Translations under genes and position numbers: made by a program
In this document: positions 2,730 to 19,069 of the stretch, one piece after another
Layout: the number at the start of each line of letters is the position of its first letter
How positions within the stretch are numbered: the first letter of the stretch is position 1
NCBI RefSeq assembly: GCF_003584565.2
Contig: NZ_CP031010.1
Location: forward strand, 930,001 to 994,000
From: Alteromonas sp. RKMC-009
Lineage (GTDB): Bacteria; Pseudomonadota; Gammaproteobacteria; Enterobacterales; Alteromonadaceae
DNA length: 64,000 nt
Direction: 5' to 3'
The notes under the pieces: generated by a model
Databases searched by the model: none
Told to the model about the DNA's origin: nothing
Seen by the model: only the letters and a program-made list of their open reading frames with translations

Positions 2730-2763
2730 TTTTAATAAAACTGTCACAGATCACCTTAATAAT
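2730..2763 (+). promoter_or_regulatory. Pho box and -10 of the phoB promoter
   Basis: Two 7-mers with 11-bp spacing: TTTTAAT (2730-2736), an AAAA spacer, then CTGTCAC (2741-2747), which is 6/7 to the Pho-box unit CTGTCAT. A -10-like AATAAT (2758-2763) starts exactly 10 nt after the box. This is the usual geometry when PhoB replaces the -35 contact. The upstream unit is degenerate. It lies 33 bp before the chosen phoB start, which fits autoregulation of phoBR. Confidence 0.6.
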
Positions 2764-2795
2764 AGCGGCGTTTTGTTATGAGCAGGAAAATATCA

Positions 2796-3485
2796 ATGTC
2801 CCGTACTGTCTTGATAGTGGAAGACGAAGCGCCAATTCGCGAAATGCTGAAATTCGTTCTTGAGCAATCAGGTTTTGATACCGTTGAGGCTGAAGATTTT
2901 GATGTGGCACAACAGAAAATCTGTGAACCATATCCGGATTTGATATTGCTTGACTGGATGTTACCGGGCGGTTCCGGTGTCCAGCTTGCTAAAGGATTGA
3001 AGCAACATGAGTTTACCCGTGATATTCCCGTTATAATGTTAACGGCACGGGGTGAAGAAGAAGATAAAATCCGCGGGTTAGATGCCGGTGCCGACGATTA
3101 CGTCACCAAGCCATTCTCTCCCAAGGAACTTATCGCCCGTATTAAAGCGGTAATGCGACGTGTGACACCGACGTCCAGTGAAGAGCCTATTGAGTTTAAT
3201 GGTCTGAAACTGGAGCCGATTTCTCACCGTGTTATGGCGAATCATGATCCGTTGGATATGGGGCCTACAGAGTTTAAGTTACTCCACTTTTTCATGACTC
3301 ATCCGGAGCGGGTGTACAGTCGTGAATTGTTGCTGGATAACGTGTGGGGCACGAACGTCTACGTTGAAGACCGTACCGTTGATGTGCACATCCGTCGTTT
3401 ACGGAAAGCCATTTCTAAGCACGGACATGACGCGATGATTCAGACAGTACGTGGTGCAGGTTACCGGTTCTCTACCAAATTGTAA
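2796..3485 (+). CDS. phoB: phosphate regulon response regulator PhoB
   Basis: OmpR-family response regulator. The receiver domain (residues 1-120) has the acidic pair in LIVEDE, the phospho-acceptor Asp near 53 ([13 protein letters not shown]), a conserved Thr (MLTARGEE) and Lys (VTKPFSP). The C-terminal winged helix ends in VRGAGYRFS. The receiver wording is very close to PhoB of E. coli, which is also 229 residues. An ATG 18 nt upstream (2778) is in frame, but AGGA at about 2783-2786 is well placed only for the ATG at 2796, so I use the shorter form. phoR follows after 83 bp and the pstS-like gene overlaps phoR, which supports a phosphate-response role. A Pho box lies upstream. Confidence 0.95.
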
Positions 3486-3568
3486 TCTGACGGCGCACCG
3501 GCATACGTTGCGTGCGCCGCCCGACATTGTCACAATAGCCTTCACATTAAAATAAGGCCTTCAATTAC

Positions 3569-4867
3569 ATGTACTATCCTTTTTCCTGGCTGAGAAGCGC
3601 AATTCGCCTGCTGGCCTATTTGCTCGTCTTCGCGCTGGTGGGGTTGTACCTGGATGACATGTTATTCGCCATTACGCTGGGCGCGCTGGGGCTGCTGATA
3701 ATCAACTACTGGCAGCTTTTTAAGCTCAACCGCTGGTTATGGCATAGCCGGAAAATGTCTCCGCCCACGGTCAGCGGGGTGTGGGAGCATATCTACGAAG
3801 GTATTTATTATCTCCAGCGGCGAAACCGCAATAAAAGGAAAGAACTCGGGGAGCTGGTAAAGCGTTTCCGTGAAGGGTCGGAAGCCTTACCTGATGCCGC
3901 AGTGGTGGTGGATTCCAAGGCCTGTATTATCTGGTGCAACCGGCTGGCAAGACTGGAAATGGGGCTTAAATGGCCCGGCGACGCCGGCGCACGTATTGAT
4001 AACCTTATCCGGCATCCTGAATTTATAGAATATTTTCATGCCGGCGATTTCAGCCATCCTATCGAAGTACCCGCACCGGCAAACCCCAGTAAAACATTCG
4101 AATACCGGATCATGCCCTATGGGGAAGAGCACCTGTTGCTGATTGCCCGTGACGTGACCCGTGTTAGCCAGTTAGAAGAAATGCGTAAGGATTTCGTGGC
4201 AAACGTTTCACACGAATTACGCACGCCGCTCACCGTGATCTCCGGTTATCTGGAATTGTTACCGGATAATGAAGACAATCCCATGGTGACCAAAGCGCTC
4301 AAAGAAATGAACGCCCAGACTCACAGAATGCAAAACCTGATTGAGGATCTGCTGGTATTGTCACGCATCGAAGCCAGCTCTGAGCGTATCTACGAAAATA
4401 AAGTCAATATGCCTTCCATGTTCCGGCAACTGGAAAAAGAAGCGCAGACACTTAACGCAGAAAAAGGTCATACCATACGCTTCCATATCGACCCTGAACT
4501 CTGGGTTTTCGGGGTGGAAACAGAACTTCGCAGTGCCTGTTCTAACCTGGTGTTTAATGCTGTGCATTACACGCCGGCCGGGGGCGAAATTGATGTTTAC
4601 TGGAAACGGGATGATCACGGCGCGTTATTTGCGGTGGTGGATAACGGTGACGGTATTGAGCAGAATCATCTTGCGCGGCTGACTGAGCGTTTTTATCGTG
4701 TGGATAAGGCACGTTCCAGAAAAACAGGTGGTTCCGGTCTGGGCTTATCTATTGTGAAACACGTGCTCAGCCATCATAATTCGCAGCTGGATATCACCAG
4801 TACAGTAGGCGAGGGGAGTCAGTTTTCTTTCCTGCTGGACGAAGAGTTAATTACGGAGAAGTCATGA
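3569..4867 (+). CDS. phoR: phosphate regulon sensor kinase PhoR
   Basis: The 432-residue kinase partner of PhoB. The N-terminus carries two closely spaced hydrophobic segments (residues about 10-27 and 31-50) with almost no periplasmic loop, the hallmark of PhoR, followed by a basic linker, a PAS domain (about 100-195), a DHp domain with His 215 in VSHELRTPLTVISGYLE, and a HATPase domain with NLVFNAVHYTP, DNGDGI and GGSGLGLSI. In the known system PhoR senses phosphate indirectly through the Pst transporter and PhoU; neither pstCAB nor phoU is in this window. The 3' end overlaps the next gene by 4 bp (ATGA), implying translational coupling. Confidence 0.95.
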   Translation: MYYPFSWLRSAIRLLAYLLVFALVGLYLDDMLFAITLGALGLLIINYWQLFKLNRWLWHSRKMSPPTVSGVWEHIYEGIYYLQRRNRNKRKELGELVKRFREGSEALPDAAVVVDSKACIIWCNRLARLEMGLKWPGDAGARIDNLIRHPEFIEYFHAGDFSHPIEVPAPANPSKTFEYRIMPYGEEHLLLIARDVTRVSQLEEMRKDFVANVSHELRTPLTVISGYLELLPDNEDNPMVTKALKEMNAQTHRMQNLIEDLLVLSRIEASSERIYENKVNMPSMFRQLEKEAQTLNAEKGHTIRFHIDPELWVFGVETELRSACSNLVFNAVHYTPAGGEIDVYWKRDDHGALFAVVDNGDGIEQNHLARLTERFYRVDKARSRKTGGSGLGLSIVKHVLSHHNSQLDITSTVGEGSQFSFLLDEELITEKS

Positions 4868-5826
4868 GCCGGTTTACGGCCTTAGTTCTGTTCCTTTGCT
4901 GTTCTGTTATCTTCCGGGCCCATGCCGCTGAGCCTGTGCCGGAATATAGCCGCAGCCCGGGCGTGGCAGGGAAAATTACCTCCGTAGGGTCTGATACGCT
5001 GGCCAACCTGATGACCCTTTGGTCGCAGGAGTTCATGGAAATGTATCCGCAGGTGAAGTTTCAGATCCAGGCTTCCGGTTCTTCTACTGCGCCGCCGGCG
5101 CTGACAGAGGGCACGGCGACGATCGGCCCCATGAGCCGTGAAATGAAACCTTCGGAAATCCGCGATTTTGTCCGTGAGCATGGTTATCCGCCTACGGTGC
5201 TGAAAGTGGCCATGGATGCCATTGCCATTTTCGTCGAGCGTCGTAATCCGGTTGAAGGCCTGACACTGGAGCAGGTTGACGCTATCTTTTCTGCTACCCG
5301 TTATTGTGGCGCCGGCTCACCGGTGACAGACTGGTCAGAACTCACCGGGAATTCAGCAAACAGCCCTTCACCCATTCGCCTGTTCGGGCGAAATTCTGTT
5401 TCCGGTACTTACGGCTTGTTTAAACTCATGGCGTTATGTGACGGAGATTTCAGGACGACAGTGAATGAACAGCCCGGTTCTGCTTCCGTGGTACTGTCGG
5501 TTGCAACCAGTCAGCATGGAATGGGGTACGCGGCCTACGGGTACAAAACCGCCGGTGTAAAGGCGCTGTCAATTGGCGAAAGCGTGGATTCACTGGTGCC
5601 CTTGACCACAGAGACTGTACGTAACGAAACCTATCCTTATGCCCGCTTTCTCTACCTGGTAGTGAATAAAGCACCGGGAAAACCTCTGCCCACACTGGAG
5701 CGGGAGTTTCTGAAGTATGTACTGTCAACACAAGGGCAGCTGCAGGTTCAGCGTGACGGCTATTTTCCTGTCAGGGAAGATGTATTACTTCGCCAGCGCC
5801 GTCTTCTGGACAACGTTCAGCGTTAA
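4864..5826 (+). CDS. PstS-like periplasmic phosphate-binding protein
   Basis: A 320-residue secreted protein with a signal peptide (residues 1-22, cleavage after AHA) and a PBP-like fold. The segments GSDTL near residue 41, ASGSSTAPPAL and GPMSREM correspond to the phosphate-cradling loops of PstS-family proteins, and RNSVSGTYG matches the conserved second-domain phosphate loop. It starts inside the last codon of phoR and is followed by a terminator, so phoB-phoR-pstS-like looks like a complete operon. The usual pstC, pstA, pstB and phoU do not follow. It may feed a permease encoded elsewhere or serve as a periplasmic phosphate sensor or scavenger. It is close to the subgroup found beside phoBR in Shewanella-like genomes, not the one in the pst operon (from memory). 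Confidence 0.85.
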   Translation: MSRFTALVLFLCCSVIFRAHAAEPVPEYSRSPGVAGKITSVGSDTLANLMTLWSQEFMEMYPQVKFQIQASGSSTAPPALTEGTATIGPMSREMKPSEIRDFVREHGYPPTVLKVAMDAIAIFVERRNPVEGLTLEQVDAIFSATRYCGAGSPVTDWSELTGNSANSPSPIRLFGRNSVSGTYGLFKLMALCDGDFRTTVNEQPGSASVVLSVATSQHGMGYAAYGYKTAGVKALSIGESVDSLVPLTTETVRNETYPYARFLYLVVNKAPGKPLPTLEREFLKYVLSTQGQLQVQRDGYFPVREDVLLRQRRLLDNVQR

Positions 5827-5877
5827 AAACGCCATGATGGCTGTCATTTTTCCTTCATACTTTCGTTTAATTGTTAC

Positions 5878-5906
5878 CGGCAAACTCGCCGGAGTGCCGC
5901 TTTTTT
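5878..5906 (+). terminator. intrinsic terminator after the phoBR-pstS operon
   Basis: CGGCA (5878-5882) pairs with TGCCG (5895-5899), and inside it CTC pairs with GAG around a GCCG loop. A run of six T follows at 5901-5906. It separates the phoBR operon from the lipoprotein gene. Confidence 0.75.
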
Positions 5907-6060
5907 AACGCTAAACAACGTATCCAGCCTTTAATTCCCCCTGTGACGGGAAATAATAAATTAAGCAAAATCATATACTAAGATTTTTAATCATCCTACA
6001 GGTCTGATTTAGATACTAAAAGTTCACTTTTCACTGTGAAAGTTTTGTGACAACGCAGAA

Positions 6061-6094
6061 GTGTAACAAATGTGTCATTTAGCTTAGGTAAAGT
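6061..6094 (+). promoter_or_regulatory. Pho box and -10 upstream of the beta-helix lipoprotein
   Basis: GTGTAAC (6061-6067), AAAT (6068-6071), GTGTCAT (6072-6078): two 7-mers with 11-bp spacing, the second 6/7 to CTGTCAT. A -10-like TAAAGT (6089-6094) starts exactly 10 nt after the box. The ATG is 63 bp after the box. Confidence 0.6.
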
Positions 6095-6141
6095 GCCTGC
6101 GTTTTCTAAATCCATAATTATATTTGCACTTGGAGAGATGA

Positions 6142-8901
6142 ATGGAACTTAAGCACTTATTTCAGGCTTCAGCAATCGCAGCAGCGCTTGTTTTAGCCGG
6201 CTGTGGTGGTGACATCAATATCAGCGAAGGCGACATCGACAACAGCGTTACAAATAACAACGGAAGTAGTGGCGATTCTGGTTCAGGTGATTCTGGCGAT
6301 ACTGATACTGCACCCGGCGAAGTGAGCTCAGGTCTGAGCACTCAAGTTTCAACTGCATTTGACAGCGACGTCACTGTTCGCGTACTGTCTGGTCGTTTAA
6401 CTGCTGATGACGCAGACGACAGCGGTAACATTACTCTGACTAACGACACCGTATGGGCGCTAGACGGCGCGGTTTTCTTCGGTAGTGACAACGCAGACAG
6501 CGTAAACCTGGTTATTGAGCCGGGCACAACTATCTTCGGTCGCAGCGGTAACGACTACATGGTTGTCAGCCGTGGTTCTACTATTGAAGCAAACGGTACT
6601 GCAGCAGCACCGGTAATCCTTACTTCAATTGAAGACGTAGTTGGCGGTGACGCTCAGCCTGGTCAGTGGGGTGGTCTGGTATTGTTGGGTAATGCGCCAT
6701 CTAACCAGTGTCCTGATACAGGTGACTGTTCTCTGCAAATCGAAGGTGCTGAAGAAGGCGCGGTATTCGGTGGAACAGACGATACAGACAGCTCCGGTTC
6801 AATCAGCTACATGGTTATCAAGTACTCAGGTTTCGAAATTGCACCGGATAACGAGCTGCAAGGTCTGACTATGGGGGGTGTGGGTTCAGGTACTTCTATC
6901 GACCACATCCAGGTACACGCATCTTCAGATGACGGTATCGAATTCTTCGGCGGTAGCCCGCAACTGAAATATGTTCTGATCACTGGCGCTCAGGATGATT
7001 CATTAGACTGGGATAACGGCTTCACCGGTAAAATCCAGTATGCATTCATCGAGCATGCCACTGACGATTCTGACGCAAACCGTGGTATCGAAGCGGATAA
7101 CGACGGTTCAGATCCGGCTAACGAGCCTCAATCTAATCCTATGATTGCTAACATGACAATCATTGGTAATAACTTCGACGGTGACGACGATTCAGAAGGT
7201 GTTTACCTTCGTGAAGGTACCGGCGCACAGATCTACAACATGGTTGTAACGGGTCCTGCTGGTATGGGCGAGTGTTTCGAAGTTGAAAACGTGACTGAAT
7301 CTCAGGCTAACCTGGCTGACGGTACTATCACGATTCAAAACTCTGTTATGGCTTGTCGTAACGGCGAAAACTTCAAGAATGACGACGGTGCAGTTGACCT
7401 TGAAGACTGGTTCCTGAACACCATGACAGGTAACTCTGTATCTGAAGCTATTGCACTGAATGCAGACGGTTCTCCTACTTCAGGCAGCCCGCTGTTAGGT
7501 GCCGGTGCTGATGCATCTCAGATTGACGGTTTCTTCGATGCAACTGACTACATCGGTGCGTTAGACGGAACAACTGACTGGCGTGAAGGCTGGGCATTTG
7601 GTTACGGCGGCGGTGAAGTGACCGGCGTAGTTGAAACTGTAGAAGGTTGCCCTACCGGTACGTCTGAAATCACTTCTGTTGACGGTACAACCACAACATG
7701 TGAACTGTCTGGCCGTATTACTTCTGACCTGACACTGACTGAAGGCAACATGTATGCTCTGTCTGGTGCAGTATTCATCGGTAATGACAATGCTGACAAC
7801 ACCACACTGACTATCGAAGACGGTGTAACACTGTACGGTGCAAGCGGTAACGATTACCTGGTAATCAGCCGTGGCTCTAAAATTGATGCGCAGGGTACTG
7901 CTGCAAACCCAATCACTTTCACTTCACAAGCTGATGTGGCGTCTGACGCCGGTGAGCCTGGTCAGTGGGGTGGTCTGGTAATGCTGGGTAACGCGCCATC
8001 TAACCAGTGTCCTGAATCTGGCGCATGTTCACTGCAAATTGAAGGTGCAGAAGAAGGCGCAGTATTCGGTGGTACAGACACTGCTGATAACTCAGGGACT
8101 ATCCGCTACGTGCGTATCATGTACTCTGGTTTCGAAATCGCACCGGACAACGAGCTGCAAGGTCTGACTATGGGCGGTGTTGGTTCAGGTACTGATATCA
8201 GCTACGTTCAAATCCACAAATCATCTGACGATGGTGTTGAGTTCTTCGGCGGTAACGTTGACATGAAGTACGTAGTACTGACTGACAACCAGGACGACAG
8301 CATTGACTGGGATAACGGCTTCCAGGGTCGTATGCAGTATGTATTAGTGCGCCAGGCGACTGACAACTCTGATGCAAACCGTGGTATCGAAGCTGACAAC
8401 GACGGTTCAGACCCGGCTAATGAGCCACAGTCTAACCCGACTCTGTCTAACGTCACTATTATCGGTAACGAGTTTGACGGTGATGACGATTCTGAAGGTG
8501 TTTACTTACGTGAAGGTACAGGCGCTCAGCTGTCTAACTTCATCGTAACAGGCCCTGCAGGCATGGGTGAGTGTTTCGAAATCGAAAACGTTAACGAATC
8601 ACAAGCTAACCTGTCTGACGGTACAACAACCTTCACTAACTCTGTTATCGCTTGTGAAAACGACGAGAACTTCAAGTTTGATGACGGTGCAGTTGACCTG
8701 GAAAACTGGTTCCTGAACACCATGACCGGCAACGCAGTTGTTGCTACTCAGGCTGAAGTAGTTAACGGTATCTACAGCATCACTGATGCAGTAACGCCTA
8801 AAGACTGGACTGGCGACACGTTCTTCGACAATGCTGACTTCGTAGGTGCAGTATCTGAAGACAACGACTGGACAGCTGGCTGGACTGTTGGTCTGGAGTA
8901 A
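6142..8901 (+). CDS. large duplicated beta-helix-like lipoprotein
   Basis: A 919-residue protein with a lipoprotein signal peptide (LVLAGC, lipidated Cys near 21), then a Gly/Ser/Asp-rich linker (about 25-65), then two tandem copies of a domain of about 410 residues (roughly 82-490 and 512-919). The copies are offset by 433 codons (1299 bp) and share long identical stretches such as GIEADNDGSDPANEPQSNP and FDGDDDSEGVYLREGTGAQ. Each copy resembles parallel beta-helix surface proteins: short turns with repeated GxD/DxD clusters that could bind Ca2+, and paired Cys residues (QCP..G.CSLQI) that could form disulfides. It is very acidic. No catalytic motif is recognised, so the function is unknown. 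Its own Pho-box promoter and the receptor gene just downstream suggest a cell-surface partner in substrate capture or processing. Confidence 0.85.
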   Translation: MELKHLFQASAIAAALVLAGCGGDINISEGDIDNSVTNNNGSSGDSGSGDSGDTDTAPGEVSSGLSTQVSTAFDSDVTVRVLSGRLTADDADDSGNITLTNDTVWALDGAVFFGSDNADSVNLVIEPGTTIFGRSGNDYMVVSRGSTIEANGTAAAPVILTSIEDVVGGDAQPGQWGGLVLLGNAPSNQCPDTGDCSLQIEGAEEGAVFGGTDDTDSSGSISYMVIKYSGFEIAPDNELQGLTMGGVGSGTSIDHIQVHASSDDGIEFFGGSPQLKYVLITGAQDDSLDWDNGFTGKIQYAFIEHATDDSDANRGIEADNDGSDPANEPQSNPMIANMTIIGNNFDGDDDSEGVYLREGTGAQIYNMVVTGPAGMGECFEVENVTESQANLADGTITIQNSVMACRNGENFKNDDGAVDLEDWFLNTMTGNSVSEAIALNADGSPTSGSPLLGAGADASQIDGFFDATDYIGALDGTTDWREGWAFGYGGGEVTGVVETVEGCPTGTSEITSVDGTTTTCELSGRITSDLTLTEGNMYALSGAVFIGNDNADNTTLTIEDGVTLYGASGNDYLVISRGSKIDAQGTAANPITFTSQADVASDAGEPGQWGGLVMLGNAPSNQCPESGACSLQIEGAEEGAVFGGTDTADNSGTIRYVRIMYSGFEIAPDNELQGLTMGGVGSGTDISYVQIHKSSDDGVEFFGGNVDMKYVVLTDNQDDSIDWDNGFQGRMQYVLVRQATDNSDANRGIEADNDGSDPANEPQSNPTLSNVTIIGNEFDGDDDSEGVYLREGTGAQLSNFIVTGPAGMGECFEIENVNESQANLSDGTTTFTNSVIACENDENFKFDDGAVDLENWFLNTMTGNAVVATQAEVVNGIYSITDAVTPKDWTGDTFFDNADFVGAVSEDNDWTAGWTVGLE

Positions 8902-8924
8902 TCACTCCTAATCCCACCATCAGA

Positions 8925-8962
8925 GCAGGCACGTTGCGGTAAAAGTAACGTGCTTGCTTTTT
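8925..8962 (+). terminator. intrinsic terminator after the lipoprotein gene
   Basis: GCAGGCACGTT (8925-8935) pairs with AACGTGCTTGC (8947-8957) with one G-T pair, followed by five T. The TonB-receptor gene begins 63 bp later, so the receptor depends on read-through or on its own promoter. Confidence 0.85.
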
Positions 8963-9024
8963 AAGTATTAAAAGCATCGATTTTTATCGTTGTATTGTAA
9001 GAACGCTTTTCCACGAGGTTTACA

Positions 9025-11676
9025 ATGAAAAAGCCTGCAATCAGGTTTCCTGTCAAACCACTGAGTCTGGCTGTACTGGCAACATTATCTGCCAGCATCG
9101 CGCCCGCAGTTGCTCAGGAAACCAATGACGAAGAAGTCATTGAAGAAGTGGTTGCCACCGGCACCCGCTTAAAAGGTACGGCGACTGCCGTTATGGAAGA
9201 ACGTAAGAACCAGGCGTTTGTTGCGGATATCATGGGTGCTGAGCAAATCTCTCGTACCGGTGACTCAGATGCGGCATCAGCATTGCGTCGTGTAACAGGG
9301 TTGACCCTGGTTGACGGTAAGTTCATTTACGTTCGTGGTCTGGGTGAACGTTATTCATCTACCCAGTTAAACGGTCTGGCAGTACCAAGCCCGGATCCTA
9401 CCCGTAACGTTATGCCTCTCGATTTATTCCCGTCTTCTATTATCGAAAGCTTATCGGTTCAGAAAGCGTATTCGCCTTCAATGCCGGCTTCGTTTGGCGG
9501 TGGTAACGTAGATATCCGTTTGCGTACCATTCCTTCCGATTTTGTGATGAGTGTGCAGGGCCAGTTAGGTTACAACTCCGATAACTTTGACGATGCCTAC
9601 ATGTACAATGGCGGCAGCGATGACTGGATGGGTAAAGATGACGGCACCCGTGCCATGCCTGCTGATATTGCAGCCCAGTATGCCAGCAAAGACTTTCTGG
9701 ATGATTTAAGCCAGGAGGAATCTGTCGCGCTGTTTAAGCAATTAAACCGTGACTACGACCCTGTACTGGAAAGTGTTGACCCTGATATGAAAGGCAACTT
9801 CTCCATCGGTAACAGTTTCGATTATAACGACGACTGGCGTTTCGGTTTCCTTGTTGCTACCGGTTATGACCGTTCTACCAATGTGAGTGAAGAATACATC
9901 GGTGAGCAGCCACTGCGTAACGGCGATGAAATCCGTATGGTCCGTTACTACGACGAAGTGAACACTACAGAGAAATCTGTGAAGTGGTCTTCACTGTTTA
10001 ACGTCGGTATCGACTATAACCGCCAGCACCGCGTGGATTACAGTGTTATTGTACTGAGCGATACCCGTGACCAGATCCGTGACATGATTGGTAATACGGC
10101 GAACATCACGTTGTCTGATAACCAGCGTGTTCGCAAATATGAAGTGCAGTACGAAGAACGTAAACTGTTCACCAATCAGATTCGTGGTACCCATACGTTC
10201 CCTGAACTGGGTTTCTTAGGGTTTGACTGGAAATACTCGTTGGGCCGTTCACTGCGTGACGCGCCGGGTAATATGGAAGCCCGCTTCCTGCTTGAAGACG
10301 AAAACCTGGATGGTATTTACGATCGTGAAACCGAAAGCAGCGTGAGTAACTCTACCGTTGCCGGACGTTATTCATTCCAGGGTCTTCATGACCGCGTAGA
10401 AAACTATGCCTACAACTTCAACTATCCGCTGATGGTAGATAAGTGGGAGATGGAATTTAAAGCGGGTGGAAATTTCCTGACCAAAACCCGTACTGCTGAA
10501 AACCGCCGTCTTGACGTGAGCACCCGTGCTTTCTCTGATACCTCATTGCTTACCGGCTATGAGTTTGACGAAGTGCTTGACGATGAAGCGCTGGACAATG
10601 CCAGCTACACCACACAGAACCTGCTACGTGACACCACCGTTGCCGGTGATGACTATGCCGCCGGTCAGAAAGTGGATTCGTATTACTTCGAAGCGGATCT
10701 GTTCTGGAACAACCTGTGGCGCTTCAGTGGTGGTGTGCGTTACGAAGACTTCCGTCAGGCTGTTGTACCTTTTGACCCCCGTACAAACCAGTTTGACTTA
10801 ACTGATGATGCAGACCGTTCACAGCTGGCGTTTGCTGAAGCCGATTTCTATCCGTCTCTGGCAGTGACTTATTTCCTTGAGCAGGATATGCAGTTGCGTT
10901 TCAGCTACGGTAAAACGGTAGTACGTCCTGACTTACGTGAAGTGTCTTCCGCTACCTACATCGATCCGCTGACTGAAAACCCTGTGGGTGGTACGCCGGG
11001 TCTGGAAACCACGTCCATCGATAACTTTGATATTCGTTGGGAATGGTACCGTGAGGCCGGTAACAACCTGTCTGTAGGTTTGTTCTACAAAGACATGGAT
11101 ACACCTATTGAATCTGTTCAGTCACCTGCACAGGACGGTCCGCCGCTCATCCGTATCGCTAATGCCGAAACCGGTAAGATGTACGGTGTGGAAGTGGAGT
11201 TCCTGCAAGGGCTTGAGGTGATCGGTGACGGCGTATGGGACAACCTGTTCCTGTCCGGTAACCTGACGTTAAGTGACTCTGAGATCGAGCTTGATCCGGC
11301 AGCCATTGAACAGCAAACCGGTGTGTCTACATCTATCACTAATACTACGCGTGCAATGACAGGTCACTCTAAATGGGTAGTCAATACGCAGTTAGGTTAC
11401 GACTCAGATAACGGCGAACACTCTGCATCTTTAGTCTATAACGTGTTTGGTCCGCGTATTCTTATTCCCGGCATCGACGGGTTCGATGACAGCTTCGAGC
11501 AGCCTTTCCACTCTCTGGATGTGGTGTACAAGTGGTACCCTGATTTTAATACCACTGTCACATTGAAAGTGCAGAATATGCTTGATCAGGAAAAGAAAAT
11601 TGAGTTTGAGGACACACTCCTAAGGTCCGAAACCGTGGGAACGTCTTTCAGTCTGGCTTATCGCTATGACTTCTAA
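9025..11676 (+). CDS. TonB-dependent outer-membrane receptor
   Basis: An 883-residue outer-membrane active transporter. Signal peptide residues 1-30 (ends in VAQ). A TonB-box-like segment (EEVVATGTR, about 41-49) is followed by a plug domain with YVRGLGERYSSTQLNG, PSSIIESLSVQKAYSP and GGGNVDIRLR, wording typical of large TonB receptors of marine gammaproteobacteria. A 22-strand-type barrel follows, with Gly/Asp-rich loops, and the protein ends in a terminal aromatic (LAYRYDF), as outer-membrane barrels do. Substrate cannot be read from sequence. Its position between a Pho-box-controlled lipoprotein and a Pho-box-controlled TonB operon suggests a phosphorus-containing ligand. I see no Pho box directly upstream. 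A perfect terminator follows the gene. Confidence 0.92.
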   Translation: MKKPAIRFPVKPLSLAVLATLSASIAPAVAQETNDEEVIEEVVATGTRLKGTATAVMEERKNQAFVADIMGAEQISRTGDSDAASALRRVTGLTLVDGKFIYVRGLGERYSSTQLNGLAVPSPDPTRNVMPLDLFPSSIIESLSVQKAYSPSMPASFGGGNVDIRLRTIPSDFVMSVQGQLGYNSDNFDDAYMYNGGSDDWMGKDDGTRAMPADIAAQYASKDFLDDLSQEESVALFKQLNRDYDPVLESVDPDMKGNFSIGNSFDYNDDWRFGFLVATGYDRSTNVSEEYIGEQPLRNGDEIRMVRYYDEVNTTEKSVKWSSLFNVGIDYNRQHRVDYSVIVLSDTRDQIRDMIGNTANITLSDNQRVRKYEVQYEERKLFTNQIRGTHTFPELGFLGFDWKYSLGRSLRDAPGNMEARFLLEDENLDGIYDRETESSVSNSTVAGRYSFQGLHDRVENYAYNFNYPLMVDKWEMEFKAGGNFLTKTRTAENRRLDVSTRAFSDTSLLTGYEFDEVLDDEALDNASYTTQNLLRDTTVAGDDYAAGQKVDSYYFEADLFWNNLWRFSGGVRYEDFRQAVVPFDPRTNQFDLTDDADRSQLAFAEADFYPSLAVTYFLEQDMQLRFSYGKTVVRPDLREVSSATYIDPLTENPVGGTPGLETTSIDNFDIRWEWYREAGNNLSVGLFYKDMDTPIESVQSPAQDGPPLIRIANAETGKMYGVEVEFLQGLEVIGDGVWDNLFLSGNLTLSDSEIELDPAAIEQQTGVSTSITNTTRAMTGHSKWVVNTQLGYDSDNGEHSASLVYNVFGPRILIPGIDGFDDSFEQPFHSLDVVYKWYPDFNTTVTLKVQNMLDQEKKIEFEDTLLRSETVGTSFSLAYRYDF

Positions 11677-11690
11677 AATCAACTCAAAAA

Positions 11691-11714
11691 GAGCCGCATC
11701 AGCGGCTCTTTTTT
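11691..11714 (+). terminator. intrinsic terminator after the TonB receptor
   Basis: GAGCCGC (11691-11697), loop ATCA, GCGGCTC (11702-11708), then six T. A perfect hairpin. It makes the downstream TonB operon a separate transcription unit. Confidence 0.95.
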
Positions 11715-11756
11715 CATCACCTCCCGTCGGATTATGACAGAGGAAATATGACAGTC

Positions 11757-11790
11757 ATGTAATAAAACTGTCATAGAAAGTTCCTATCCT
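11757..11790 (+). promoter_or_regulatory. Pho box and -10 of the TonB operon promoter
   Basis: ATGTAAT (11757-11763), AAAA, CTGTCAT (11768-11774): the second unit is a perfect Pho unit, the first 5/7, and the spacer is the consensus A tract. A -10-like TATCCT (11785-11790) begins 10 nt after the box. Two further CTGTCAT units lie on the opposite strand just upstream (around 11734-11740 and 11748-11754) but with 14-bp spacing. This is the best PhoB site in the window and sits 76 bp before the first gene of the TonB operon. Confidence 0.75.
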
Positions 11791-11849
11791 ACGCGCAGAA
11801 ATTTACGCTCGGTTAAATCCGATTCCTTTTAACAGTAAGGTTTGAATGT

Positions 11850-12608
11850 ATGAAGCTTTTCAACTCGTTGCTGCTGGCGAGCGCCCTGACGGCCACTACC
11901 GCCATGGCACAAGACGATAGCGTCTTGAAACCCGTTGTCGATGAGGCTGCAAAAATCAATGAAAGTGCAGCTAAATCACAAGACAAAATCAACAATATCG
12001 CTGACCAAATCGATAATAAACTTCAAACGTTCAAAACGTTGAATAAAGAAATCGAAGGACTGGAAGTTTATAACAACCAGCTGCGCAAACAGATTGCCAA
12101 CCAGGAACAGGAAATGGCTGATCTGAACGCATCAATCGACGAAGTTTCAGTTATCGAGCGTCAAATCACGCCGTTAATGATTCGTATGATTGACGGTCTG
12201 GAGCAATTCGTTGCCCTGGACGTGCCTTTCCTGGAAGAAGAGCGTGCCAAGCGTATCGCTGACTTAAAAGACATGATGGATCGTGCTGACGTGTCTGCCT
12301 CTGAGAAATTCCGTCGTGTTATGGAAGCCTACCAGGTTGAGATGGATTACGGCCGCACTATGGAAGCTTACACCGGTATCCATGAAATTGACGGTACAGA
12401 GCGTGACGTTGAGTTTTTACGTCTTGGCCGTACTGCACTGATTTACCAAACCCGTGACGCTGGTAAGCAAGGTGTTTGGAATAAACAAACACGTCAGTGG
12501 GAAGAACTGGACAGCAGCTACCGTACACAGATCACTAAAGGTCTGCGCATGGCGAAGAAACAGCTTGCACCAGACCTGTTAATGCTGCCTGTTGCAATCA
12601 CGGACTAA
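11850..12608 (+). CDS. DUF3450 periplasmic coiled-coil protein
   Basis: A 252-residue protein with a signal peptide (residues 1-20, TTAMAQ). A long coiled coil (about 40-105, heptads rich in Ile/Leu/Gln/Glu) is followed by a helical C-terminal half containing EKFRRVMEAYQVEMDYGRTMEAY, which I recognise as DUF3450. This family is consistently encoded next to an ExbB-type protein with a periplasmic extension in marine gammaproteobacteria. It is first in a tight six-gene operon (spacing 0-25 bp) that starts at a Pho box. Likely role: periplasmic accessory part of the TonB energising complex; the mechanism is unknown. Confidence 0.88.
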   Translation: MKLFNSLLLASALTATTAMAQDDSVLKPVVDEAAKINESAAKSQDKINNIADQIDNKLQTFKTLNKEIEGLEVYNNQLRKQIANQEQEMADLNASIDEVSVIERQITPLMIRMIDGLEQFVALDVPFLEEERAKRIADLKDMMDRADVSASEKFRRVMEAYQVEMDYGRTMEAYTGIHEIDGTERDVEFLRLGRTALIYQTRDAGKQGVWNKQTRQWEELDSSYRTQITKGLRMAKKQLAPDLLMLPVAITD

Positions 12609-12620
12609 GAGGTATTGACC

Positions 12621-13985
12621 ATGTTAAAGCAGATTAAATTTTTAGCAGCTGGTCTTGCCGCTGCAACATTAAGCTTCGGTGCAATGGCAGAAAACGACCG
12701 CGCACTGGATCTTGATGCCCTGTTGAAGCAACTGGAAGAAGGCCAGTTCGCCCAATCACAACAGAATAAGCAACGTGAACAGGAATTCGCACAACAGCGT
12801 GCTCAGCAGGACCAGATCCTGGCTGATACCCGCAAGAAGCGTGATCAGGCGCTGGCGAATTCAGAAAGTCTGGAAACTCAGTTTGAAGAAAACGAATTTA
12901 AACTGGCCGATCTGAATGCCGCTCTGGATACCCGTTTAGGTTCTTTGAAAGAACTGTTCGGTGTACTGCAGCAGGTTGCCGGTGACACCAAGAGCAAATT
13001 CCAGAACTCTGTTGTTTCCGCTCAAATCCCCGGCCGCGCTGAGTTTCTTGACAACATGGCACAGTCAATGGGTAAGAGCTCAAAGTTAGCGTCTATCGAA
13101 GAGATTGAGCGCGTATGGTTTGAAATGCAGCGTGAAATGACTGAGTCAGGCAAAGTGACTAAGTTCGACACGTCTGTTGTTGAAGCCGGCGGCGAGAAAG
13201 TTAATAAAGAAATCGTACGTGTTGGTCCGTTTGCACTGGTTGCTAACGGTAAATACCTCGACTTCAACGGCATCACCGGCACAGTAGCTGAACTGGTTCG
13301 CCAGCCGGCTGACCGTTACGGCGATTCTGCACAGGCGCTGCAAAACTCAAACGGCGAACTGGTTGAGTTTGGTATTGACCCTACAGGCGGTTCTATCCTG
13401 GGTCTGCTGGTTCAGGCACCTGATCTGAAAGAGCGTGTAGAGCAGGGCGGTGAAGTGGGCTACATCATCCTTATCGTAGGTGCTATTGGTCTGCTTCTGG
13501 CGATTGAGCGTCTTATCAGTCTGACGCTGATTAACGCGAAAGTACAAAAGCAACTTAAGCGTAAAGAAATCAAAACTGACAACCCGCTGGGCCGTGTACT
13601 GAAAGTACGTGAAGATCACCCTAATGCGGATGTTGAAGCGCTGGAATTGCACTTAACAGAAGCGATTTTAGGTGAAGTACCAAAACTGGGTCGTAACCTG
13701 ACCATTATCAAGATTATCTCAGTGGTTGCGCCTCTGATGGGTCTGTTAGGTACAGTAACCGGTATGATTAACACCTTCCAGGCAATTACCCTGTTTGGTA
13801 CCGGTGACCCGAAACTGATGGCAGGTGGTATTTCTACCGCACTGGTAACTACAGTACTGGGTCTGGTTGTAGCAATTCCTATGACATTGTTATACGCCAT
13901 GCTGAATACCCGTAGTAAGAATATCGTGTACGTGCTGCAAGAGCAGGCGTCTGGTGTTATCGCAGAGCGCGCTGAGCGGGGCTAA
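12621..13985 (+). CDS. long ExbB/TolQ-family protein with periplasmic coiled coil (TtpC-like)
   Basis: A 454-residue proton-channel-family protein. A signal-peptide-like N-terminus (ends in AMAEN) leads into a Gln/Glu-rich coiled coil and a periplasmic domain (about 25-270), then a TM helix (VGYIILIVGAIGLLLAIERL) and two further TM helices with the MotA/TolQ/ExbB signature (LMGLLGTVTGMINTFQ; GGISTALVTTVLGLVVAIP). This architecture matches TtpC-type proteins, which in Vibrio are required alongside ExbB2/ExbD2/TonB2. A TTG six bases upstream is in frame, but AAGAGG at 12607-12612 fits the ATG at 12621. The stop is followed by exbB after 3 bp. Confidence 0.9.
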   Translation: MLKQIKFLAAGLAAATLSFGAMAENDRALDLDALLKQLEEGQFAQSQQNKQREQEFAQQRAQQDQILADTRKKRDQALANSESLETQFEENEFKLADLNAALDTRLGSLKELFGVLQQVAGDTKSKFQNSVVSAQIPGRAEFLDNMAQSMGKSSKLASIEEIERVWFEMQREMTESGKVTKFDTSVVEAGGEKVNKEIVRVGPFALVANGKYLDFNGITGTVAELVRQPADRYGDSAQALQNSNGELVEFGIDPTGGSILGLLVQAPDLKERVEQGGEVGYIILIVGAIGLLLAIERLISLTLINAKVQKQLKRKEIKTDNPLGRVLKVREDHPNADVEALELHLTEAILGEVPKLGRNLTIIKIISVVAPLMGLLGTVTGMINTFQAITLFGTGDPKLMAGGISTALVTTVLGLVVAIPMTLLYAMLNTRSKNIVYVLQEQASGVIAERAERG

Positions 13986-13988
13986 GCC

Positions 13989-14513
13989 ATGATCGCATTT
14001 CTCGAAGCCATTCGTGATTTTACAGAGACAGGGGGCCAGGTTCTCCTGGTCATCGGTCTGCTGATTTTCATCATGTGGTTACTTATTCTCGAGCGTGCGA
14101 TGTACCTGCTGATTTGGCACAAGAACTTTAAGAAACAGGCCGTAGCTGAATGGAAAGCCCGCAGTGATCGTTCCTCCTGGTTTGCTGAGCAAGTACGCCA
14201 GAAAACGATTTCTGCACTGACCATTCGTTTACGGGGCAGCATTCCGATTATTCAGGCGCTGGTGGCATTGTGTCCGCTGCTGGGTCTGATGGGTACGGTT
14301 ACCGGAATGATTGAAGTTTTTGATGTAATGGCCATCTCCGGCTCGGGTAACGCCCGCTCTATGGCATCTGGTGTATCTAAAGCCACTATCCCGACAATGG
14401 CGGGTATGGTTGGCGCGTTGTCAGGCGTATTCGCCTCGACCTGGCTGAACCGTATGGTGAAGACCGAACGCACACACTTAGAAGACGCCTTGATTATTGA
14501 TCGCAAAGGCTAA
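13989..14513 (+). CDS. exbB: ExbB2-type TonB-system proton channel subunit
   Basis: A 174-residue inner-membrane protein with three TM helices: VLLVIGLLIFIMWLLILERAMYL near the N-terminus, then IPIIQALVALCPLLGLMGTVTGMIEVF and IPTMAGMVGALSGVFASTWL. The LLGLMGTVTGM signature and its short form are typical of ExbB2. It forms the proton channel with ExbD and drives TonB. It sits between the long ExbB-like protein and exbD, each a few bases apart. Having two ExbB-family proteins in one operon is the TonB2/TtpC arrangement. Confidence 0.93.
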   Translation: MIAFLEAIRDFTETGGQVLLVIGLLIFIMWLLILERAMYLLIWHKNFKKQAVAEWKARSDRSSWFAEQVRQKTISALTIRLRGSIPIIQALVALCPLLGLMGTVTGMIEVFDVMAISGSGNARSMASGVSKATIPTMAGMVGALSGVFASTWLNRMVKTERTHLEDALIIDRKG

Positions 14514-14536
14514 GCCTTTCTGTCAGGAACCTTATT

Positions 14537-14944
14537 ATGAAGCAGCATTTTCAAAATCTGATTGACGAAGAAGAAGCCACAATTGATATGACGCCCATGC
14601 TGGACGTTGTTTTCATCATGCTTATCTTCTTCATTGTAACGGCGTCTTTCGTGAAAGAAGCCGGTATCGATGTAAACCGTCCTGAAGCGGCCACCGCAGT
14701 AAAACAGGATCGCGCTAACATTCTTATCGCGATTTCTGATACCGGTGAAATCTGGATCAACAAGCGTCGTGTTGACGTACGTGCGGTACAGGCCAACATC
14801 GAGCGTCTGCATGCTGAAAACCCGCAGGGTACTGTGGTGATTCAGGCAGATCAGAAGGCCACCACCGATACGCTGATCAAAGTTATGGATGCCTCCCGTG
14901 CGGCGGGTGTTTACGAAGTTTCAATCGCAGCACAAGAGCCTTAA
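14537..14944 (+). CDS. exbD: ExbD2-type biopolymer transport protein
   Basis: A 135-residue protein. The N-terminal cytoplasmic stub with IDMTPMLDVVFIMLIFFIVTASF holds the conserved proton-relay Asp in the single TM helix (MLDVVFI) and is the family hallmark. A small periplasmic domain follows (residues about 45-135), with the conserved stretch VVIQADQKATTDTLIKVMD. It completes the proton channel with the ExbB subunit. RBS AGGAAC lies 8 bp before the ATG. Confidence 0.95.
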   Translation: MKQHFQNLIDEEEATIDMTPMLDVVFIMLIFFIVTASFVKEAGIDVNRPEAATAVKQDRANILIAISDTGEIWINKRRVDVRAVQANIERLHAENPQGTVVIQADQKATTDTLIKVMDASRAAGVYEVSIAAQEP

Positions 14945-14947
14945 GCC

Positions 14948-15556
14948 ATGCCACGATTTATCATCGCATTTGTCATTTCGCTGGCGATTACGCTCGGCCT
15001 GTTCTTCTTGATGCAATCACTCATCAAGATGGGCGGCAGTGCGTTAACAGAGCCACCAAAAGGCAGTGTGCTTGACTTTGTGCGGGTGAAGAAAGAGGAA
15101 ACGGTTGAACAAAAAGACCGTAAGCCCCGGAAGCCACCACCGCCAAAAGAGCCACCGCCGCAAATGAGTTCACCGCAAATGGATTCGCCTTCGCCTGACG
15201 CCAATGGTACGTCTATGGACTTCGGTGGTGATGTTGGCGCTGACGTAGCCCTGGACGGCGGCTTAGCACTTGAATCCGGAGACGGTGAGTATCTGCCTAT
15301 CGTTAAAGTTGCGCCGGTCTATCCCCGTCGTGCATTGCAGCGTGGTATCGAAGGTTTCGTTATTGTGGAGTTTACGGTAACCAAACAGGGTACAGTGCGC
15401 GATCCGGTTGTTGTAGAAGCTAACCCTTCGGGCATATTTGAGCAGGCTGCGATGGATGCCGCCATGAAGTTTAAATATAAGCCCCGTGTTGTTAACGGTG
15501 AAGCGACTGAAGTGTCCGGCGTGCAGAACCGAATCACCTTCCAGATTGACGGGTAA
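14948..15556 (+). CDS. tonB: TonB energy-transducing protein (TonB2 type)
   Basis: A 202-residue TonB. An N-terminal TM anchor (FIIAFVISLAITLGLFFLMQS), then a short Pro/Lys-rich spacer (KPRKPPPPKEPPPQ), then a Gly/Asp linker and a C-terminal TonB domain (about 115-202) with VYPRRALQRGIEGFVIVEF and AMKFKYKPRVVNG. The short spacer is typical of TonB2 proteins. The domain contacts the TonB box of outer-membrane receptors; the obvious client is the receptor encoded at 9025-11676. The start is 3 bp after exbD. Confidence 0.95.
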   Translation: MPRFIIAFVISLAITLGLFFLMQSLIKMGGSALTEPPKGSVLDFVRVKKEETVEQKDRKPRKPPPPKEPPPQMSSPQMDSPSPDANGTSMDFGGDVGADVALDGGLALESGDGEYLPIVKVAPVYPRRALQRGIEGFVIVEFTVTKQGTVRDPVVVEANPSGIFEQAAMDAAMKFKYKPRVVNGEATEVSGVQNRITFQIDG

Positions 15557-15561
15557 GTACT

Positions 15562-16866
15562 ATGAAGAATCATTTATCCAAACGTTTGGTTTGCGCTTTT
15601 TCACTGGCCTTAAACCTGGCAGTTGTACCCGCCGTTGTTATCAGCGCGCAGGCACAGGCTCAGGAAGTTAAAGCCAGCGAAAAGAAAACCCGCAAAGTAC
15701 CGACTTTGCGTGGCAAAGTTTACGAACAGTTAGCCCGCGCTCAGGCGGCCGGCGATGAAGGAAATATTCCTGAAGCCATTGCCATCCTGGATGAGGTGAA
15801 AGGCAAAGACAGTTCGATGAACAGCTACGAAAAAGCCATGATGTATAACTTCTACGGCTTCATCTATTACAACGATGAGCAGTACGATAAAGCATTAGAC
15901 AGCTTTGCGCAGGTGGTGGAGCAGCAGCCGATCCCTGAAAAGTTTGAGATGACGACCTTGTTCAGTCTTGCTCAGTTAAACCTGATGCAGGGTAACTACG
16001 ACAAGAGTATTGCATATCTTGAGCGCTGGGAAGCATTGAACGACGGTGTCGTTCCGCCTAAGAATCTGATTTTAAAAGCTCAGGCTTATTATCAGAATAA
16101 GGAATACGCTAAAGCCGAACCGTTCATCACTAAAGCGATTGCTGATCATGAAGCTGAGGGCATGCTCCCTGATGAGAACTGGCTGATTCTGCAGCGGGCC
16201 ATTTACTATGAACTGAAACAGCCTGAAAAGGTGAAGAATGTTCTGATTAAACTGGTGAAGTTGTTTGACGAGCCCAAGTACTGGATCCAGCTTGCCGGCA
16301 TGTACGGTGAACTGGGTGAAGAACGCAAGCAACTGGCAATCATGGAATCAGCTTATCAGCAAGGTTACGTGGAATCGTCTGCCGACATCTTCAACCTCGC
16401 ACAGCTTTATTACTATCACAAAGTCCCTTATAAAGGCGCTTTGCTGATGGAACAGGCGATGAAAGACGGTACGCTGGAAAAGAACCTGCGTAACTTACGT
16501 TTCCTTGGCCAGAGCTGGACCCTTGCCAAAGAGCAGGATAAAGCCATTCCGGTGATGCAGTCTGCCGCTGAATTGTCAGAAGACGGCGAACTGGATGCCC
16601 AGCTCGCACAGGTATTGCTGAATGCTGAACGCTGGGATGATGCCATTACCGCTGCTGACCATGCTATTGAAAAAGGTCAGTTACGGAATCCGGGTATTGT
16701 ATATCTGATTAAAGGCATGGCACTGTACAACAATAAGCAGTACGCCAAAGCACTGGATCAGCTTGCTGAAGCTGAAAAGCATCAAAAGAGCAAAGCAATG
16801 GCACAGCAATGGAAGCGCTTTGTACAGTCTGAGAAGACTCAACAGGAAGCGATGGCTGAAATTTGA
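15562..16866 (+). CDS. periplasmic TPR protein of the TonB operon
   Basis: A 434-residue protein with a signal peptide (residues about 1-33, SAQAQAQE). The rest is built of alpha-helical TPR-like repeats: YNFYGFIYYNDEQYDKALDS, FSLAQLNLMQGNYDKSIAYL, LKAQAYYQNKEYAKAEPFI and YLIKGMALYNNKQYAKALDQ have the W/Y-G-Y-A-P spacing. It is the last gene of the TonB operon, 5 bp after tonB, and is followed by a strong terminator. TPR partners encoded beside TonB2 systems are thought to scaffold the complex; this is by analogy. Confidence 0.88.
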   Translation: MKNHLSKRLVCAFSLALNLAVVPAVVISAQAQAQEVKASEKKTRKVPTLRGKVYEQLARAQAAGDEGNIPEAIAILDEVKGKDSSMNSYEKAMMYNFYGFIYYNDEQYDKALDSFAQVVEQQPIPEKFEMTTLFSLAQLNLMQGNYDKSIAYLERWEALNDGVVPPKNLILKAQAYYQNKEYAKAEPFITKAIADHEAEGMLPDENWLILQRAIYYELKQPEKVKNVLIKLVKLFDEPKYWIQLAGMYGELGEERKQLAIMESAYQQGYVESSADIFNLAQLYYYHKVPYKGALLMEQAMKDGTLEKNLRNLRFLGQSWTLAKEQDKAIPVMQSAAELSEDGELDAQLAQVLLNAERWDDAITAADHAIEKGQLRNPGIVYLIKGMALYNNKQYAKALDQLAEAEKHQKSKAMAQQWKRFVQSEKTQQEAMAEI

Positions 16867-16911: not shown

Positions 16912-16953
16912 AGGCCGGTTGTCCTGATAAAAAAGGGATAACCGGCCTTTTTT
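16912..16953 (+). terminator. intrinsic terminator of the TonB operon
   Basis: AGGCCGGTT (16912-16920) pairs perfectly with AACCGGCCT (16940-16948) around a 19-nt loop; TCC/GGA inside the loop may extend the stem. T-run 16948-16953. Confidence 0.9.
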
Positions 16954-17910: not shown

Positions 17911-17962
17911 TAAAGCATCATTTCACTACAGTGAAAACTCACTAATGAACAAGGATGCTGTC

Positions 17963-19069
17963 ATGAGTGGTCTTAAACGACTCGCACAAATCACACTTTT
18001 ATCTTCAATGCTTTCAATGTCTGCTGCGGCTGATGAATTCAGTGAGGTCTACCGTGCGTTTAAGGAGGCGGTGGAAAAAGATGACATCGTACTGAGTACG
18101 GCGCTGGCGAAACAAGCCTGGCAGCTGGGTCAGCAAAAATACGGTGCTGACAGCGAAAATGCGGTGAAGCTCAGGCATTCCTACGCCAATATGCTCGCAC
18201 AGCAGGACTATATGGATGAGGCTGTCAGCCAGTTCAAAGCTGTACTGGAGCAATACGATTCGCTGTATGAAGAAAACTCCCCTGCGTTACTGAATATGCA
18301 CATCGATATTCTCAGTGCAGTGAATAAGCTTAAGGGCATGGATAAGGCTAAAGTCAGCTTTTCACAACGGCTGAGTCGTTACATCATTCTCAACATGGAC
18401 GACATCCAGTTTAAAGATGATGCTCAGAAGGTTATGACGCATTACCTTGCTGCCACAGTAGTTATCAATTCAATCTTAGGAGTGACCAACAACGCAATAT
18501 TGCGTTTCTATAAAGACAACCTGAGTATCGTTGATGGCTTTTGGGGGGATAAAGATTTACGGACTCTGGAATCCCGCTTGTTGCTGGGTTTGGTGTATGA
18601 GAGTTATAACCACCGTTCTGCGGCCATCGAGAATTATGAGATTGTTGCTGATACCTTCGACAGTAATCTTGATTTCTCCCATCCGTACGCATTGAATGCC
18701 CATGCGAAACTGGTCGGTTTGTATGAGAAGAAAGGAGAGTCAGATAAGGCTACAGAGCACTGCCGGGCGATAGGGAAAATGAAGCCGTGGTCAGATGATC
18801 AGGAGCCCGAGCCGCTTTATCGTGTAAACCCGGATTATCCGGTGTCTTATGCAAGGCGGGGTAAAGACGGCAGTGCAGTCCTGTCATTTACTATCGATGA
18901 TGAAGGCTTTGTCCGTGATATTGAATTGATAGAAACTGACGGTGGCAGCATGTTTGGTACCGCAGCAATAAAGGCGCTGGAACACTGGCGTTATGCTCCC
19001 AGATTTGTCGGTGGTAATGCGGTTGCAACGAAATCGCGCATGGTCAGAATGGATTTTAAATTGGGTTGA
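17963..19069 (+). CDS. periplasmic TPR protein with C-terminal TonB domain
   Basis: A 368-residue protein. Signal peptide about residues 1-22 (SAAADEF). Two thirds are helical with TPR-like repeats (NMLAQQDYMDEAVSQFKAVLEQY; LGLVYESYNHRSAAIENYEIV; HAKLVGLYEKKGESDKATEHC), followed by a TonB C-terminal domain (about 285-368): VNPDYPVSYARRGKDGSAVL, DDEGFVRDIELIE and ALEHWRYAPRFVGG. There is no N-terminal membrane anchor or Pro-rich spacer as in energising TonB proteins, so it is probably a soluble periplasmic protein that binds receptors or cell-wall components without transducing energy. AAGGA at 17950-17954 supports the ATG at 17963 over an in-frame ATG at 17945. It converges on the HD-GYP gene. 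Confidence 0.85.
   Translation: MSGLKRLAQITLLSSMLSMSAAADEFSEVYRAFKEAVEKDDIVLSTALAKQAWQLGQQKYGADSENAVKLRHSYANMLAQQDYMDEAVSQFKAVLEQYDSLYEENSPALLNMHIDILSAVNKLKGMDKAKVSFSQRLSRYIILNMDDIQFKDDAQKVMTHYLAATVVINSILGVTNNAILRFYKDNLSIVDGFWGDKDLRTLESRLLLGLVYESYNHRSAAIENYEIVADTFDSNLDFSHPYALNAHAKLVGLYEKKGESDKATEHCRAIGKMKPWSDDQEPEPLYRVNPDYPVSYARRGKDGSAVLSFTIDDEGFVRDIELIETDGGSMFGTAAIKALEHWRYAPRFVGGNAVATKSRMVRMDFKLG

Follow-up and report, generated by a model that had tools for sequence, protein, structure and literature searches.

The 64-kb window analysed here, positions 930001–994000 of the 5.0-Mb genome of Alteromonas sp. RKMC-009, carries a consecutive row of genes for PhoB, PhoR and a PstS-like protein, followed by those for a lipoprotein, for a TonB-dependent receptor (TBDR) and for the six components of a TonB2-type complex (Table 1). 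These genes probably form a PhoB-activated outer-membrane system for phosphorus scavenging, in which the lipoprotein–TBDR pair is served by an energiser of its own. Gene content, promoter boxes, co-occurrence in relatives and the lipoprotein fold were computed, and from these we infer PhoB binding, induction, lipoprotein excess and surface position, import and the class of substrate. Judged by sequence, the combination of a lipoprotein–receptor pair of the Caulobacter ElpS type with a Pho-controlled TonB2-type motor appears to be new here. The places and kinds of the genes, as given in a first-pass annotation of the window, were upheld by the TIGR and Pfam cut-offs, and by gene order for the tetratricopeptide-repeat (TPR) protein.

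Pho boxes in 250-bp upstream regions were scored against a consensus with 14 positions, made up of two CTGT[AC]A[CT] repeats with an 11-bp pitch. The consensus was verified on five Escherichia coli K-12 promoters; pstC promoters were tried as a source for a matrix, but most pstC loci ended short of the upstream region, so the plain consensus was used. Three units had been proposed to start with a Pho-box-like repeat followed by a -10 element, and their boxes indeed scored 12, 12 and 13, like the E. coli positive controls (pstS 14, phoA 13, phoE 13, ugpB 12, phoB 12), while the comparison promoters iraP, sbcD, proB, livF and ugpE reached 9–11. All three have the layout of a direct PhoB target, with two 7-bp repeats at 11-bp pitch and the -10 hexamer 10 nt past the box; in E. 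coli pstS, phoA, phoE and ugpB, a hexamer that begins with TA follows the box at this spacing too. The phoB box was the weakest of the three. PhoB itself scored 365 bits against TIGR02154 (cut-off 296) and is 74% identical to its E. coli counterpart; its start codon is probably at 2796, because this codon aligns with residue 1 of E. coli PhoB.

The first-pass annotation had let its proposal hinge in part on box scores above background and on conservation in relatives, and by consensus score both were above the controls. A score of at least 12/14 was reached by 38 of 41 promoters of orthologues of the DUF3450 gene (shuffles 0.4%), 20 of 25 lipoprotein promoters (shuffles 1.0%) and 7 of 10 phoB promoters. 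Among the controls, the same threshold was reached by only 1 of 21 promoters of paralogous DUF3450 genes, which belong to a second TonB2 complex of the same family, by 1 of 5 pstS promoters, by none of nine promoters of a divergent kinase and by none in two operon-internal sets (0/35 and 0/32); dinucleotide shuffles of the scored promoters reached it in 0–2%. Within the family, orthologous promoters thus retain the box and comparable control promoters lack it; in distant lineages it weakens. These counts include the window, and late-starting alignments were dropped, among them those of L045 and L061 in the case of the lipoprotein. In another set of lipoprotein promoters, which shares some members with the first, 26 of 29 reached 12. 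TAnnnT lay exactly 10 nt past the box in 32/41 DUF3450 and 39/49 lipoprotein promoters, compared to no more than one promoter for each spacing of 6–9, 11 or 12 nt and no more than three for 13–15 nt, although the peak is flattered by the resolution of ties between equal-scoring boxes toward TA at +10.

In four genomes the lipoprotein gene is remote from the TonB operon; its box scored 13 in all four and was followed by a -10 ten nt on in G005 and G009. An inverted second box stood exactly 7 nt from the main box in 26 of 41 lipoprotein promoters (taking the best box with TA at +10) and scored at least 11 in 27 of the 41, vs. 3.7% of background windows; it was kept in G005 and G009 and missing in G071, where the gene is also unlinked. 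Among loci from named genomes, lipoprotein boxes of at least 12 were found in Alteromonas and its kin (13/13), Pseudoalteromonas (8/8), Colwelliaceae (8/8) and the Rheinheimera group (3/4), with start codons picked by a loose lipobox rule that misplaced some upstream stretches; DUF3450 promoters from named genomes reached 12 in 18/23 cases, and in 13/23 a score of at least 11 went with a -10 ten nt on. Box strength, the conservation of box position and of the distance to the -10, the clean controls and the boxes at unlinked lipoprotein genes strongly support PhoB control, which on this sequence evidence is very likely for both the lipoprotein–receptor unit and the TonB complex.

Genome-wide, the exact pattern TGTMAYNNNNNTGTMAY-N10-TANNNT occurred three times: upstream of the lipoprotein gene, of the TonB operon and of the type II secretion system (T2SS) operon, where it precedes gspC at genome position 4770066 (the T2SS lies at 4.77 Mb, the window at 0.93–0.99 Mb). 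Allowing one mismatch in box-N10-TAnnnT gave 17 sites, five of them inside open reading frames (ORFs) of at least 80 aa, vs. five for the reversed pattern; the phoB box was not among the 17. The box without the -10 was unselective (18 exact sites vs. 8 for the reversed pattern) and is therefore telling only together with a -10 or with conservation. At T2SS promoters of relatives, 3/30 boxes reached 12/14 and 13/30 scored at least 11 with TAnnnT ten nt on (rows read by eye), which suggests a weaker Pho link than at the lipoprotein and TonB-complex promoters. Among others, one-mismatch sites lay at 865764, upstream of a secreted protein with LTD and Endonuclease I domains, which would be consistent with DNA serving as a phosphorus source, and at 1064491, 2707336 and 4064346, upstream of polyphosphate kinase and two further TBDRs. 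The second TonB2-type complex of this genome, at 1591512, has a sole 12/14 site 244 nt upstream, without TA ten nt on; nearby are a 2OG-Fe(II) oxygenase-like gene and the gene of a receptor that weakly matches heme/B12/siderophore types.

Across 118 genomes of the family, the DUF3450 orthologue (called at best E < 1e-60) was present in 90, and its promoter was examined in 41 of them. The lipoprotein occurred in 89 of these 90 genomes vs. 8 of the 28 lacking the orthologue (Fisher p 3e-15, kinship ignored; G065 was counted as positive on a weak match of 2.7e-36). Four genera have members with both genes and members with neither. Of 40 18-kb loci around the DUF3450 orthologue, 26 contained the lipoprotein. 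A comparison of gene order, as the first-pass annotation had advised, covered the best 80 of at least 494 loci, ranked by closeness to the single-domain lipoprotein: a TBDR was present in 74, mostly adjoining, an ExbB–ExbD complex in 29, phoB (at least 40% identity) in 21 and T2SS genes in 10. Lipoprotein, receptor and TonB complex stay together in differing orders, namely lipoprotein–receptor–TonB complex in Alteromonadaceae and Colwelliaceae, TonB complex–lipoprotein–receptor in Pseudoalteromonas, and lipoprotein–ExbB–ExbD–(TonB)–receptor in six loci from delta-group bacteria, Myxococcota, Methylothermaceae and others. In four loci of the Rheinheimera group, phoR–phoB is divergent from the lipoprotein–receptor pair, and the order lipoprotein–receptor–T2SS was found in eight of nine alphaproteobacterial loci, including Kordiimonas, Eilatimonas and Phenylobacterium; the ninth (L178) shows no T2SS. 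This repeated clustering in differing orders argues for a shared function. The 148 ORFs located 3' of the receptor in relatives (at most three per locus, judged by eye from their starts, without a family scan) formed recurring clusters of T2SS genes in Alphaproteobacteria, a pst/porin set in Rheinheimera-type loci and an aspartate-semialdehyde-dehydrogenase-like gene in eight Pseudoalteromonas loci.

The lipobox LAGC of the window lipoprotein was shared by 18 of 26 relatives; seven had another lipobox-like ending and one was a fragment. The two halves of the protein are 64.5% identical to each other over 420 residues, and the predicted model (mean pLDDT 86, pTM 0.54) consists of two right-handed beta-helices and is nearly all-beta. 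Single-domain relatives have 491–578 aa, and other open frames of 1361–1378 aa have further repeats; relatives were also found in records of Bacteroides, Parabacteroides and Hymenobacter. Depending on the genome, the site between pstS and the DUF3450 operon is occupied by a long (two-domain) or a short (one-domain) lipoprotein–receptor pair (window and four loci of relatives). The model matched right-handed beta-helices such as NosD, epimerases, lyases and tailspikes alike (Z 18.7–22.7), all among the 50 matches listed, and these ties pick out no single function. By sequence, the lipoprotein had no match in NCBIfam, PHROG or the scanned Pfam set; this set lacked PF28492, a family borne by all of the database relatives listed (at least 120). 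A SusD domain (PF07980/PF14322) was likewise not found, given the lack of a Pfam match and the nearly all-beta model, and a profile of the single-domain relatives had no match to PDB sequences at E <= 1. No phosphatase domain of the alkaline phosphatase kind was hit in Pfam or NCBIfam, and the structural matches listed were beta-helices, although an activity outside that list may be present. The receptor had no match to PDB sequences at E <= 0.001, and its nearest named subfamily, the general TIGR01782, scored below the cut-off.

Caulobacter crescentus ElpS (CC0170) was described as a phosphate-starvation lipoprotein of ~50 kDa with the lipobox LAGC and without a known functional domain, exposed at the surface independently of the T2SS and released by way of it, whose gene adjoins those of the receptor CC0171 and gspC-N (PMC2996285); the Caulobacter PhoB regulon includes the T2SS and various TBDRs (PMC11208175). 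Going by this description of ElpS, the window lipoprotein is very probably its relative, given its lipobox, its TBDR partner and the T2SS neighbours in Alphaproteobacteria. Both pairs share the LAGC lipobox and a TBDR gene directly downstream, the single-domain relatives are ElpS-sized, and the T2SS tie recurs through the exact box at the T2SS of this genome. With Phenylobacterium locus L219 as a Caulobacter proxy, identities were 38% for the lipoprotein and 30% for the TBDR. Unlike in Caulobacter, the lipoprotein has two beta-helix domains, the T2SS lies elsewhere on the chromosome instead of directly downstream, and the pair is joined by a TonB2-type complex with its own Pho promoter. The lipoproteins FI, FII and FIII of Flavobacterium johnsoniae, modelled on polygalacturonase, are related, with 31–36% identity to the Caulobacter lipoprotein; FI and FII adjoin TBDTs (PUSIII, PUSIV), the FII cluster includes phoBR, both are phosphate-starvation-induced, and FI made up 18.7% of the low-Pi exoproteome (PMC8115612). 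By this description they resemble the window in their lipoprotein–TBDT pairs and in the phoBR genes of the FII cluster, but belong to Bacteroidetes, and the paper never uses the word ExbB, so that no co-induced energiser is described there.

In Vibrio, the full order of the TonB2 genes is ttpB2, ttpC2, exbB2, exbD2, tonB2, ttpD2. The window likewise holds DUF3450, TtpC, ExbB, ExbD, TonB and TPR genes in one operon with the DUF3450 gene first; the TPR gene was identified by order only and named from gene order and the Vibrio precedent. As excerpted, however, iron lack induces the Vibrio complex with TtpB2 (DUF3450), TtpC2 and TtpD2 (TPR), which has predicted Fur sites (PMC6957404), whereas that of the window has Pho boxes and phosphorus neighbours. 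The first-pass annotation had noted that most TonB systems are iron- or vitamin-controlled and had proposed a whole energising complex under PhoB, for which there is a partial precedent: exbB2-exbD2-tonB4 of Pseudomonas aeruginosa, a TonB energiser induced at low phosphate via PhoB in a locus with T2SS (hxc) genes (PMC4971064, PMC7035377). It differs in needing sigma-VreI as well, and the excerpts of these papers mention neither DUF3450/TtpC/TPR proteins nor a lipoprotein–TBDR pair. Among the open-access titles and abstract starts listed, with most of the subscription literature lying outside, we found no report of PhoB control of a DUF3450/TtpC complex, and the excerpts of PMC2536512 and PMC9040609 held nothing on this locus.

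Under the proposed mechanism, low phosphate would lead PhoR–PhoB to activate three units, phoB-phoR-pstS, lipoprotein–receptor and the TonB2-type energiser, by binding of PhoB to their boxes. The lipoprotein would be made in excess over the receptor, as the hairpin and T-rich tail behind its gene lead one to expect (fold z = −3.5 in the window, and z <= −2.0 in 22 of the 25 intergenic regions folded including the window, relative to mononucleotide shuffles), and the paired boxes suggest a strong promoter. It may then lie on the cell surface and be partly released, as reported for ElpS, and capture or present a phosphorus-containing substrate, presumably organic or polymeric phosphorus, to the receptor, which would import it, powered by the TonB complex induced alongside. 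A bolder version, in which the lipoprotein acts as a 'phosphophore', a protein counterpart of siderophores and hemophores that is made in large excess, shed from the surface with the aid of the co-regulated T2SS, binds phosphorus polymers or esters in the environment and is unloaded at the receptor by the PhoB-induced TonB motor, seems rather unlikely.

Several observations weigh against PhoB-driven scavenging by a dedicated unit. The sequences compared are related, and the promoter counts are conservation counts rather than independent trials. Lipoprotein boxes of at least 12 were few in distant lineages (other Gammaproteobacteria 11/21, Alphaproteobacteria 2/9, Deltaproteobacteria and others 1/11, Idiomarinaceae 0/5), and DUF3450 boxes of Pseudoalteromonas mostly lacked the -10 at ten nt. 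A phoB gene of at least 75% identity was present in only 9 of the 40 loci around the DUF3450 orthologue, and no recurring phosphatase, phytase, nuclease or other phosphorus enzyme was found by eye among the 148 receptor-downstream ORFs. In the window, the receptor gene is not preceded by a box (1/24 receptor promoters reached 12) and would thus rely on read-through past the hairpin or on an unrecognised promoter; as CC0171 was reported to be constitutive (PMC2996285, excerpt), the receptor may not follow the regulation of the lipoprotein. The proposal of a dedicated system is thus strongly supported for PhoB control, by sequence, and less so for a complex that serves this receptor alone, given the pair without the complex in the 8 of 28 genomes and the two other TBDRs with Pho-like sites.

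Even under genuine PhoB control, the receptor could import a cargo free of phosphorus that is needed at low phosphate, such as an anionic polysaccharide, a metal or a siderophore. The about equal fit of the beta-helix fold to NosD, epimerases, lyases and tailspikes would allow this, as would the general nature of the receptor's nearest subfamily and the iron regulation of Vibrio TonB2 (PMC6957404, excerpt); we nevertheless consider it unlikely, as phoBR or pst genes accompany the pair in several lineages and the excerpted Flavobacterium study found the low-Pi loci including FI and FII tightly repressed under nitrogen and iron limitation (PMC8115612). It is very improbable that the boxes are AT-rich repeats arisen by chance or belong to some other OmpR-type regulator: they were scored by consensus rather than by binding, and the box alone was only about twice as frequent as its reversed control, but clean promoter controls, E. 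coli-like spacing and the close identity of PhoB to that of E. coli speak for true Pho boxes.

The receptor and TonB complex might instead export or display the lipoprotein, since in Caulobacter the T2SS is not needed to bring ElpS to the surface, the route being unnamed in the excerpt (PMC2996285), and of the 80 loci surveyed 74 have a TBDR and 29 an energiser near the lipoprotein. As TBDRs are overwhelmingly importers and deletion of cc0171 did not abolish ElpS production (data not shown in that paper, whose excerpt says nothing of ElpS location), an exporter is improbable. The idea that the receptor senses phosphorus status, weighed but not favoured in the excerpted discussion of PMC2996285, draws on the adjoining phoB-phoR; with no sigma or anti-sigma domain in the ten block proteins scanned and a receptor composed of plug and barrel only, it is the most remote of these explanations. 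Import of phosphorus compounds by a PhoB-activated lipoprotein–receptor pair with its own energiser is therefore preferred.

Further features of the locus are listed in Table 1. The start of the PstS-family gene overlaps the stop of phoR. No pstCAB genes adjoin it, and the nearest pstC-like match is 125 kb off; of 43 genomes, 27 have pstC on the contig that carries the DUF3450 operon, and in 7 the two lie within 30 kb of each other. Salinimonas and Alteromonas have the closest DUF3450 genes among named loci (86–87%). Beyond the block, an ORF at 17945–19069, downstream of a methyltransferase-like gene, has a TonB-like C-terminus by eye.

Table 1. Genes, promoter boxes and inverted repeats of the locus, in window coordinates.
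Feature	Position	Strand	Basis or remark
Pho box of phoB, TTTTAATAAAACTGTCAC	2730..2747	+	12/14; -10 AATAAT at 2758-2763
phoB ORF	2778..3485	+	TIGR02154 above cut-off
phoR	3569..4867	+	PF11808, TIGR02966 above cut-off
PstS-family phosphate-binding protein	4864..5826	+	TIGR02136 above cut-off
Inverted second Pho box, reverse complement TTGTCACAAAACTTTCAC	6036..6053	-	12/14; 7 nt upstream of main lipoprotein box
Pho box of lipoprotein–receptor unit, GTGTAACAAATGTGTCAT	6061..6078	+	12/14; -10 TAAAGT at 6089-6094
ElpS-like lipoprotein, 919 aa	6142..8901	+	Lipobox LAGC; two right-handed beta-helix domains (model)
Hairpin then T-rich sequence, lipoprotein–receptor gap	8922..8960	+	Possible partial terminator or stabiliser
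TonB-dependent receptor (CC0171-like partner), 883 aa	9025..11676	+	PF07715, PF00593 above cut-off
Terminator-like inverted repeat after receptor	11686..11713	+	12-pair stem, palindromic; T run on plus strand
Pho box of TonB-complex operon, ATGTAATAAAACTGTCAT	11757..11774	+	13/14; -10 TATCCT at 11785-11790
DUF3450 protein (TtpB-like)	11850..12608	+	PF11932, 318 bits
Long ExbB-like protein (TtpC-like)	12615..13985	+	PF01618; length, gene order
ExbB	13989..14513	+	PF01618
ExbD	14537..14944	+	PF02472
TonB	14948..15556	+	PF03544, TIGR01352
TPR-type protein (TtpD-like), putative	15562..16866	+	ORF; last operon gene in relatives
Terminator-like inverted repeat, long loop, T run	16912..16953	+	By eye (loop limit of inverted-repeat search 8)

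Energisers of the DUF3450/TtpC type have so far been described as iron systems, in Vibrio. The Pho boxes on the orthologue group, and its travelling with the ElpS-like pair, point to a second, phosphorus-linked role for this complex. The ElpS/FI lipoproteins, abundant but unexplained under phosphate starvation, would gain candidate partners in a receptor, a motor and a secretion system that share one promoter type. The ligands of ElpS-like proteins, and a possible TonB-driven import of larger phosphorus compounds across the outer membrane, thereby become questions that can be tested in a common marine laboratory strain.

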